Assembly: GCF_003268885.1 (NCBI RefSeq)
Contig: NZ_QLSX01000011.1
Location: 62,001 to 126,000, forward strand
Reading direction: 5' to 3'
Length of the DNA stretch: 64,000 nucleotides
From: Onishia taeanensis
GTDB lineage: Bacteria > Pseudomonadota > Gammaproteobacteria > Pseudomonadales > Halomonadaceae
The position numbers and the translations under genes are program-made. Position 1 is the stretch's first letter. Every line of letters begins with the position of its first letter. Shown here in pieces: positions 37,476-40,891 of the stretch. The notes under the pieces are model-generated. The model was not told the origin of the DNA and ran no database searches. It saw only the letters and a list, made by a program, of their open reading frames with translations.

Positions 37476-37588
37476 GGCGGCGAAAACAGCACTCCCAAGG
37501 CATGTCTAAAAGGTTAAGCTTATCAGCATTTGTCGTTGACGCCCTGGGCAGCAATGTCGCAGGGCGACCACAAGGATGAGGAGACGCC

Positions 37589-38570: not shown

Positions 38571-39572
38571 TTAGCCTTCCTGGGTGACCCGGTTGGCGCA
38601 AGGCATACCGCGACTCAGGGCATCGATGTTGGCAAGCGTCACCTCGGCGATCTCGGTGAGCGCCTCGGCGGTAAAGAAGCCCTGATGGCCGGTGATCAGC
38701 ACGTTGGGGAAGGTGGTCAGGCGTTGGAAAACATCGTCATCGATGATGTCGCCCGAGTGGTCGCGGAAGAACAGCGACGTCTCCTGCTCGTAGACGTCGA
38801 TGGCCAGGCCCCCTAGACGCCGCGTCTTGAGCGCCGCGATCGCGGCCCGGGTATCGATCAGCCCGCCCCGCGAGGTGTTGATCAAGATCGCCCCAGGCTT
38901 GAGCCGGCAAAGCGCCTGCTCATCGATCAGATAGCGGGTCTCATCGGTGAGCGGGCAGTGCAGGCTGATCACATCGCTTTCGGCCAACAGCCGTTCCCGG
39001 GACACATACTCCCCGTCCAGCGCCTGGAAGGCTTCGCTCGGGTAACGGTCCTCGCCGAGCAACCGGCACCCGAAGCCGCGGAAGATGCGCGCCGTGGCAA
39101 GGCCGATGCGGCCGGTACCAATCAGGCCCACCGTCTTGCCGGCAAGCGTCATGCCTAAAAGCCCCTCGAGCATGAAGTTGCCCTCGCGCACCCGGTTGAA
39201 GGCGCGGTGGGTGCGACGGTTGAGGGTCAGCAACAGCGCCAGAGCATGCTCAGCCACCGCTTCCGGTGAATAGGCCGGCACCCGCGCCACCGCGAGGCCC
39301 AAGCGCTCGGCGGCGGCCAGATCCACGTTGTTGAAACCGGCGCAGCGCATGGCAACGAAACGCACGCCGAAGGCCGCCAGCGCTTCCAGCACCTCGGCAT
39401 CCAGCCGATCGTTGACGAAGGCGCAGACCCCGTCGACACCCTGGGCCAGCACCGCACTGTCCGGCGTCAGGGTCACCTCGTGAAACTGAAGGTCGATATC
39501 GCGACCTGCACACGCCTCGGTGAAGAAACGACGGTCGTAGGGCTGAGCACTGAACACGGCAACGCGGGACAC
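38571..39572 (-). CDS. ldhA: D-lactate dehydrogenase (NAD-dependent 2-hydroxyacid dehydrogenase)
   Basis: A 333-residue cytosolic enzyme reducing pyruvate to D-lactate. NAD-binding 'GLIGTGRIGLATARIFRGFG' (about residues 147-166), substrate Arg in 'INTSRGGLID', catalytic Glu in 'YEQE' and His in 'ITGHQGFFT' (the usual His site) are present. The start is GTG 39572, 5 nt after AAGGAGG; the GTG six bases earlier is inside that ribosome-binding site. Upstream lies a 12-nt repeat array and then the divergent candidate small RNA. Confidence 0.93.
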   Translation of the reverse strand: MSRVAVFSAQPYDRRFFTEACAGRDIDLQFHEVTLTPDSAVLAQGVDGVCAFVNDRLDAEVLEALAAFGVRFVAMRCAGFNNVDLAAAERLGLAVARVPAYSPEAVAEHALALLLTLNRRTHRAFNRVREGNFMLEGLLGMTLAGKTVGLIGTGRIGLATARIFRGFGCRLLGEDRYPSEAFQALDGEYVSRERLLAESDVISLHCPLTDETRYLIDEQALCRLKPGAILINTSRGGLIDTRAAIAALKTRRLGGLAIDVYEQETSLFFRDHSGDIIDDDVFQRLTTFPNVLITGHQGFFTAEALTEIAEVTLANIDALSRGMPCANRVTQEG

Positions 39573-39584
39573 GGACACCTCCTT

Positions 39585-39668
39585 GTGAAGACTCTGGTGA
39601 AGACTCTGGTAAAAACCCGTATGAAGACTCTATGTGCAAAAACTTCTGAAAACTCTTGTGGAAACACG
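39585..39668. repeat. Degenerate 12-nt tandem array upstream of ldhA
   Basis: Seven consecutive 12-base units, the first two identical (GTGAAGACTCTG at 39585 and 39597) and the others increasingly diverged, cover the ldhA leader/promoter region. Confidence 0.7.
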
Positions 39669-39696
39669 GGTCGAGACCTAGAGCCAGATCTTTTGT

Positions 39697-39746
39697 TGAA
39701 AAACATTCTCGTTACGCTTGACCGATCAAATGAGAATGCTTATCTT
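39697..39746 (+). promoter_or_regulatory. Sigma-70 promoter with overlapping Fur boxes
   Basis: TTGACC (39718-39723), 17-base spacer and TATCTT (39741-39746) form a good sigma-70 promoter. TGAGAATGCTTATCT (39731-39745) agrees at 12 of 14 defined positions with the 7-1-7 Fur consensus TGATAAT-N-ATTATCA and covers most of the -10 box. A second, weaker match (10 of 14) lies at 39697-39711. This is the layout of an iron-repressed promoter. Confidence 0.65.
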
Positions 39747-39752
39747 TGGTGT

Positions 39753-39866
39753 GTGGCGCTCGCCAAGCGCCACTTACCATGCAGAGAATGTCAGGTTCCC
39801 TGTCATGGTTTCTCCTCATCAAGCTAGTCACGGTCTTAATGCCGCCCTCCCGGGCGGCGTTTTTTT
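39753..39866 (+). ncRNA. Candidate Fur-controlled small RNA (RyhB/PrrF-like in design)
   Basis: The predicted start, 7 nt after the -10 box, coincides with a perfect 8-bp hairpin (GTGGCGCT/AGCGCCAC, 39753-39773). About 65 nt of less structured sequence follow, including a UCUCCUC stretch near 39811 able to pair with ribosome-binding sites, then a Rho-independent terminator (39841-39866). Length is about 114 nt. Reading frames through it run into the terminator and have no family match. The 5' hairpin, open middle and terminator resemble iron-responsive small RNAs, but I see no recognisable RyhB or PrrF core, so it would be a functional analogue only. Confidence 0.6.
39841..39866 (+). terminator. 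Terminator of the candidate small RNA
   Basis: GCCGCCC and GGGCGGC arms with a short loop are followed by seven T on the plus strand. No T-run exists on the minus strand, so it does not serve the LysR gene. Confidence 0.9.
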
Positions 39867-39982
39867 GTCTGGCTTTCAAGACGGTAAGGCCATTGTGCCG
39901 GGCATCGGTCGGGCTCGCCTTGTCCTCCGTCAAGCTCGACCGTGTCATCACGTTCCTCAGCGCCAGCATGCTCTGCACAGCC

Positions 39983-40891
39983 TCAGCGAGCGCCCCGCTC
40001 CCGCCACAGGCCGCGCTGATAGAGCCGCTCGTGGAGCAGTGCGGCCAGTGCATCCACCGCGGGCTTCGAGGCCGCCGACATCCGTTTGCCGAGGTGAAGC
40101 TGCGCCTCGCCGCCGGTCAGCGCCGGCAGCCCATCCGCCGGCCCTAGCTCGCGCATCGCCGGCGTCAGCCGCTCCCGGTCGAGCACGCTGATCGACAGCC
40201 CCGCCTCCACCGCCGTTTCCAGGGCATGAACGCTGGTGCTGGTGAAGACCGCATACCAGGCGCGCTCCTCGGCCTCCAGCGCCTCAATGCCGATCGCTCG
40301 GTACGGGCAATCCACCGGATGCAGGCCCAACGGCAAGGGCTGCGTCGGGTCGAGCACGTACTCCCGAGCCGCGGCCCAAACCGGTGAAGTGCGCCACAGC
40401 GGCTGGCCACCTTCGAGCCGGTGCGAGCGGTCGAGCAGCAGCGCAAGCGTCAGCTCACCACGCTCGAGCCGTCGGGCCAGTTCACCGCTGGTCGCGGTGA
40501 CCGCCTCCAACAGCACATCAGGATGCTGAGCCATGAACTCGGGCAGGATCTGGCCTACCAGCTCGCGGGCAAAATCCTCCGGCATGCCGAAGCGCACCCT
40601 GCCGGAAAGCCCTTGGCCGGTGAAACGCGCCAGCAGCCGATCATGCTGCCCCAGCAGGGCGCGAGCCTCGCGCATCAGCGACTCGCCGGCGGGCGTCAAC
40701 GTCATGCCGCGAGCGCTGCGGATCAGCAGCCGTGTCGCCAAGCGCTCCTCTAATCGCTTGATTTGCATGCTGATCGCGCTGACCGTGCGATGCCGCTGCT
40801 CGGCGGCTGCGGCCAGGGTGCCAAGCTGCGCGACGGCCAGAAAGCTGCGCAACGACTCAAGATCCAGGGCGCTGGACACGACTTCAGACAT
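39983..40891 (-). CDS. LysR-family transcriptional regulator
   Basis: A 302-residue regulator. The N-terminal helix-turn-helix ('SLRSFLAVAQLGTLAAAAEQRHRTVSAISMQIKRLEERLATRLLIRS', region residues 13-59) is typical, followed by a two-lobed effector domain. Divergent from the DMT exporter gene with 121 bp between starts, the usual layout for a LysR protein and its target. Effector is unknown. Confidence 0.88.
   Translation of the reverse strand: MSEVVSSALDLESLRSFLAVAQLGTLAAAAEQRHRTVSAISMQIKRLEERLATRLLIRSARGMTLTPAGESLMREARALLGQHDRLLARFTGQGLSGRVRFGMPEDFARELVGQILPEFMAQHPDVLLEAVTATSGELARRLERGELTLALLLDRSHRLEGGQPLWRTSPVWAAAREYVLDPTQPLPLGLHPVDCPYRAIGIEALEAEERAWYAVFTSTSVHALETAVEAGLSISVLDRERLTPAMRELGPADGLPALTGGEAQLHLGKRMSAASKPAVDALAALLHERLYQRGLWRERGAR

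Follow-up and report, generated by a model that had tools for sequence, protein, structure and literature searches.

The transcription unit analysed here lies at 39697-39867 on the plus strand of the window, which is the whole stretch of 64,000 nucleotides that was analysed. It stands alone between a D-2-hydroxyacid dehydrogenase gene, called ldhA in the original prediction, and a LysR-type regulator gene, and is divergent from the former. The features of the locus are listed in Table 1. The closest named loci are two from Onishia taeanensis of the Halomonadaceae (L082 and L085), with main blocks that are 86-91% identical. Searches across the genome with BLAST and the Rfam model RF00444 give a copy number of one, the sole further BLAST match of the unit being a 30-base terminator-like piece.

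Table 1. Features of the locus, with positions counted from the first letter of the window
Feature	Position	Strand	Basis
D-2-hydroxyacid dehydrogenase gene ('ldhA')	38571-39578	minus	named by resemblance
Upstream AT-rich block, putative second Fur site, weaker, reverse-oriented	39699..39714	+	conserved in 47 rows; Fur binding predicted
-35 hexamer TTGACC	39718..39723	+	TTG invariant in 47 aligned promoter rows
Putative Fur box AAATGAGAATGCTTATCTT over the -10	39728..39746	+	block conserved in 47 rows; not rare as a lone motif
-10 hexamer TATCTT	39741..39746	+	promoter scan
prrF homologue, predicted sRNA of about 115 nt	39753..39867	+	start placed from the -10; RF00444 and R1 matches
5' hairpin, 8 pairs	39753-39760/39766-39773	+	fold; double changes at 6 of 8 pairs across 43 sequences
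Second stem-loop ACCAUG...CAUGGU	39776..39809	+	single-sequence fold only; absent from the RNAalifold consensus
Predicted pairing core UCUCCUCAUCAAGCUAGUCACGGUC, mostly single-stranded	39811..39835	+	PrrF consensus match; unpaired probability
Core segment GCUAGUCACGG, complementary to the sdhC start codon region, 10/11	39823..39833	+	predicted pairing
Rho-independent terminator and U tract	39838..39867	+	terminator scan; double changes at 3 of 4 consensus pairs
LysR-type regulator gene	39983-40891	minus	named by resemblance

Across 78 named loci, an AEC transporter gene is near 52, trmB is near 54, a LysR-type gene is near 26, and ldhA is near 10. These loci are at most 8 kb each, thus the counts are lower bounds on the presence of each gene. 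Based on these counts, the AEC gene and trmB are the older neighbours and the adjacency of ldhA is incidental.

The original prediction had read a complete non-coding transcription unit from these letters, and its parts are recovered. The sigma-70 promoter TTGACC-N17-TATCTT is present at 39718-39746 and is the single sigma-70-like site between 39300 and 40300 (shuffle mean 0.0). The Rho-independent terminator is a strong one, with its stem at 39838-39861, followed by seven T, giving a unit of about 115 nt; two terminator-like sites are found in the same 39300-40300 interval, with a shuffle mean of 0.9. The Fur-type box over the -10 had been credited with 12 of 14 positions. Direct reading of 39731-39745 gives 11 of 14 against TGATAATNATTATCA, which we take to be the Fur-box consensus, and overlapping 19-mers at 39726 and 39732 each agree at 13 of 19 positions with what we take to be the E. 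coli-type consensus. The window holds 10 Fur-like sites of at least 13/19, mostly elsewhere, with 1.25 expected per Markov window, and locally 9 of 500 simulated stretches attain this score. As a lone motif the box is not rare, and the count of Fur motifs is not persuasive by itself.

Support for the box comes from 47 aligned promoter rows, since strong conservation is seen in both the AAATGAGAATG-TTATCTT block over the -10 and the upstream AAAA-ATTCTCGTT block, in contrast to the variable bases separating the -35 from the Fur box. This conservation favours the two blocks being Fur operators, the upstream one corresponding to the weaker second box that had been proposed.

In the copies from Kushneria sinocarnis (L097), Cobetia crustatorum (L109), and Carnimonas (L114), read by eye among the alignment rows listed, the Fur box over the -10 has been lost and the upstream Fur-like block is kept. 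It is possible that iron control of these prrF copies is altered.

Homology with PrrF

An Rfam scan of the window at the gathering cut-off found no family. A permissive scan identified RF00444 (PrrF) at 39718-39868, promoter included, with 57.6 bits (E 1.7e-9) and an alignment spanning model positions 1-150 of 150. The curated gathering cut-off for RF00444 is 90, and it is because the score lies below this that a default scan misses the gene. Homology to PrrF is claimed here, rather than formal RF00444 membership. The second-best family, ncS54, reached 27 bits (E 2.3e-4) over the end of the core and the terminator, and RyhB was absent from the 13 families listed at E<=10. The core, which had not been recognised when the unit was first read, shares 22 of 24 positions with the PrrF consensus.

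The homology was also approached from the other side. A model, R1, was built from an alignment, A1, of 43 sequences (this one and 42 relatives), none of them from Stutzerimonas. Searching with R1 picks up L120, a Stutzerimonas locus, at 49.3 bits (E 1.6e-10). Against RF00444 this locus reaches 127.5 bits, a score over the cut-off. The model of the new group thus finds an accepted PrrF member. Its score for the present locus is 120.1 bits at 39747-39865, this sequence itself being part of R1. The predicted length of about 115 nt agrees with the 116 and 114 nt given for PrrF1 and PrrF2 (PMC2851614), which counts in favour of the same identity.

The unit is predicted, with a probability of about 0.88, to be a prrF gene, the only one in this Halomonadaceae genome, encoding an iron-sparing PrrF homologue. 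The original prediction of a Fur-controlled iron-sparing RNA on a PrrF-like plan is well supported by the sequence, and its guess at function is probably right. It had, however, proposed an undescribed functional analogue. Most likely this is a relative of the known PrrF, and not a new kind of RNA, which the Rfam cut-off has concealed and which the standard RNA database misses.

At E<=1e-3, RF00444 matches 90 of 146 genomes, the present one included, and none of 14 control genomes; one of the 146 passes the cut-off. Within the family (G000-G090), 81 of 91 genomes match, none of them over the cut-off, and 18 of the 81 have at least two matches. Each of the six genomes in the genus of the window has a single match. 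Plain BLAST of the unit finds matches in 85 of the 146 genomes, some through short pieces only. The exact core is present in 78 stretches from named genomes, by title 69 of Halomonadaceae type (a placement of genera that is partly our assumption), one unclassified (MFB021), six Oceanospirillum, one Oceanospirillaceae MAG, and one Stutzerimonas. The gene therefore extends beyond Halomonas, to which it had been assigned, into Oceanospirillum, Stutzerimonas, and other genera. Order-wide, R1 matches 42 of 293 genomes under strict filters that lose weak matches, and PrrF appears to be patchy at this scale. In the open-licence literature searched, no description of a native PrrF in Halomonadaceae was found, and there was no match for PrrF together with Oceanospirillales.

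In genus g3, which belongs to the same family as the window, RF00444 finds nothing at E<=1e-3 in three genomes (G007, G056, and G076) and matches four others. At some loci two or three prrF cores are found within a few kb (L124, L108, L074, L068, and L063), the hosts being Oceanospirillum sediminis, Phytohalomonas, Larsenimonas, Halomonas sp. McH1-25, and Halotalea. By analogy with PrrH of P. aeruginosa, a read-through RNA is conceivable at such clustered cores. Five tandem R1 matches, 277 to 301 bases apart, are present on contig C3 of genome G339 (family f38) at 1547579-1548837.

Predicted targets and sdhC

The sdhC gene of this genome begins AGAGCCGUGAAUAGC and is complementary to the core at 10 of 11 positions across its GUG start, the sdhC side of the predicted pairing being GCCGUGAAUAGC. 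It ranks 8 of 562 gene starts by complementary length. When pairing energy is considered in a 27-nt window, 11 of the 562 starts and 3 of 1000 shuffled cores pair at least as strongly; in a 40-nt window these become 45 of 562 and 80 of 1000. For other candidates in 40-nt windows, the null starts pairing at least as well numbered 165 of 562 for sodB, 78 of 562 for acnA, and 55 of 562 for leuC. Target prediction against iron-protein mRNAs, suggested at the outset as a check, thus singles out sdhC in the narrow window but leaves sodB ordinary and acnA at the rank just given. In 40-nt windows, the predicted pairing with targets of this genome is modest.

In a 60-nt test, acnA-type starts, a label assigned by length and profile, are in the best 0.5 to 2.1% for 9 of 10 family genomes from four genera. 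The present genome is at 2.1%, and the exception is G007, a genome lacking a PrrF match. Among relatives, ferritin-family genes gave no signal at their starts, many of which the simple start finder had put in the wrong place.

A single long antisense target was considered and rejected. The genome-wide search for the complement of the 24-nt core, with G-U allowed and up to 3 mismatches, returned the opposite strand of the gene itself and one 3-mismatch site, and the reversed-pattern control returned 1 site. At 37574-37584, the AEC transporter gene has a ribosome site (GGATGAGGAGA) in which 10 nt are perfectly complementary to the PrrF core. As a conserved target this was also rejected, a run of at least 9 being found in only 3 of 46 relatives' starts, all from Onishia, in a set where at least one start (L081) is mis-cut. 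The complement appears to be lineage-specific or due to chance.

The simple start finder misplaced sdhC starts as well, and these were then read by motif; of 107 sdhC loci, 94 had readable starts and 13 were dropped. A match to the 11-base sdhC site at no fewer than 10 positions is seen in 29 of 35 PrrF-positive genomes versus 6 of 59 PrrF-negative genomes. Counted by family this is 6 of 8 versus 1 of 22 (Fisher p 3e-4, with families that are not independent and shared ancestry uncorrected), and the site shares bases with conserved N-terminal codons of SdhC. There are cases in which the site is kept without a PrrF hit, these being family f8 (2/2), three f20 genomes, and one f29 genome, and in f16 and f37 it is missing from the one PrrF-positive genome of each family for which the start was read. 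In G007, the only one of the three g3 genomes without a PrrF match for which the start was read, the site differs (GTGAAAGAC).

It may be, at somewhat less than even odds, that PrrF is ancestral to the wider order, presumably Pseudomonadales in the GTDB sense, that its core co-evolved with the start-codon region of sdhC, and that sdhC was its founding target. PrrF carriers would then have kept GCCGUGAAUAG(C) across the GUG start, and the sdhC site would have drifted in lineages that lack PrrF. If true, this would explain the near-frozen GCUAGUCACGG, and it is an idea open to testing. That sdhC is a PrrF target is not new, since it has been termed a validated one (PMC8534726).

The findings on targets also bear on whether the unit could be a Fur-controlled sRNA that descends from PrrF but has shifted its main targets in the Halomonadaceae, making 'iron-sparing' in the Pseudomonas sense only partly right. 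Such a shift would be in keeping with predicted sodB, acnA, and leuC pairing that is not outstanding here, with ferritin-family starts that are unremarkable in relatives (many of them misplaced), and with the complement at the neighbouring AEC transporter start in this lineage. The core, however, is nearly the same as in Pseudomonas, which suggests that its partners have been kept, and the sdhC site and PrrF occur together across families. A shift in the main targets is considered unlikely, and the iron-sparing PrrF homologue is the preferred reading.

RNA structure and coding potential

In folding, the 115-nt unit is more stable than its shuffles (z -5.2, with 0 of 200 as stable). The 8-bp hairpin that had been read at the predicted start is found at 39753-39773, and the open middle with its UCUCCUC stretch is likewise present, the stretch lying at 39811-39817 within a core of mean unpaired probability 0.82. 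In alignment A1, the 5' helix and terminator core pair in 92.8% of cells versus 83.8% when shuffled, and slid versions of the helices pair in no more than 57.9%. Double-change cells number 64 versus 22.9 shuffled, with double changes at 9 of 12 consensus pairs; the rows are related and the structure was taken from their own consensus, which favours both the pairing and the covariation measures. On this alignment the hairpin and terminator covary as RNA. A covariation search among relatives had been proposed for the unit, and in the Halomonadaceae it gives these covarying elements together with a conserved core. Nor have the promoter, box, and terminator been lost, all being conserved across the Halomonadaceae.

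It could be argued that the stretch acts mainly as DNA, serving the divergent ldhA-type gene as its Fur operator and supplying a terminator, with no free RNA. The conserved Fur-like blocks and the divergent arrangement would be expected from this. Yet it is the transcribed core that is most conserved (in alignment rows partly selected on the core), the helices covary as RNA, and the neighbours vary, with ldhA and the LysR-type gene each near a minority of the 78 loci. A role at the level of DNA is very improbable, and an RNA of the PrrF kind is better suited to these observations.

A conserved small open reading frame was considered and rejected. One frame is open in some of the 43 relatives and shifted or stopped in others, with no consistent ribosome site at its starts, in agreement with the first reading that no plausible protein lies inside. 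That the promoter-like, Fur-like, and terminator-like matches are due to chance, or that this is a small protein gene, can hardly be credited, for although equal Fur-like matches occur elsewhere in the window and that frame is partly open, the covariation, the reciprocal match of R1, the conservation, and the homology contradict it, as do the shifts and stops.

Proposed mechanism and comparison with known systems

The genome has genes for Fur (151.4 bits), for a second Fur-family protein (60.9 bits), and for Hfq (100.9 bits). Iron-loaded Fur would bind the box over the -10, and probably also the upstream block, leaving the prrF gene silent. When iron is scarce, transcription would produce the RNA of about 115 nt, which the 5' hairpin would protect and which Hfq could hold by the terminator U tract. 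The exposed core would pair with the start regions of iron-protein mRNAs, stopping translation and sparing iron. The most plausible target is sdhC, where GCUAGUCACGG would pair over the GUG start, with perhaps acnA or sodB, where UCUCCUC may pair at the ribosome site. In P. aeruginosa at low iron, sdhCDAB, acnA, and acnB are described as lowered by PrrF (PMC2851614). The pairing of PrrF with antR is reported to need Hfq, and the antR complementarity is placed at the translation start (PMC5501646).

New here is the predicted presence of PrrF in the Halomonadaceae beyond the curated family line; PrrF as a kind of RNA and sdhC as its target were already known. P. aeruginosa PrrF1 scaffolds are reported to be in use already in Halomonas bluephagenesis, in one system with its Hfq (PMC12164125, PMC13101641, PMC13414033). 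The Halomonadaceae, including industrial chassis strains, gain a predicted native iron-sparing sRNA that annotation at the Rfam cut-off has missed. A native RNA with a near-identical core could cross-talk with the imported PrrF1 scaffolds.

The same regulatory logic is seen in RyhB of the enterobacteria and Vibrio, which is a Fur-repressed iron-sparing sRNA. The present unit is unlike RyhB in that the RyhB model is not among its matches at E<=10, which places it outside that family. BrrF of Burkholderia, NrrF of Neisseria, and ArrF of Azotobacter also share this logic. The predicted interactions of BrrF include sdhC, acnA, and sodB, and it is described in the same source as present only within the Burkholderiales, downstream of hemP, and without a Fur box of its own (PMC7377471).

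With PrrF1 and PrrF2 of Pseudomonas, the unit has in common the -35, a Fur box over the -10, the 5' hairpin, the single-stranded core, and the terminator, together with end-to-end alignment, the core identity of 22/24, and the length of about 115 nt. It differs from them in having one copy rather than two, in hairpin sequences that have diverged, in a score of 57.6 versus the cut-off of 90, and, for many of its relatives, in the location of the gene between the AEC transporter gene and trmB.
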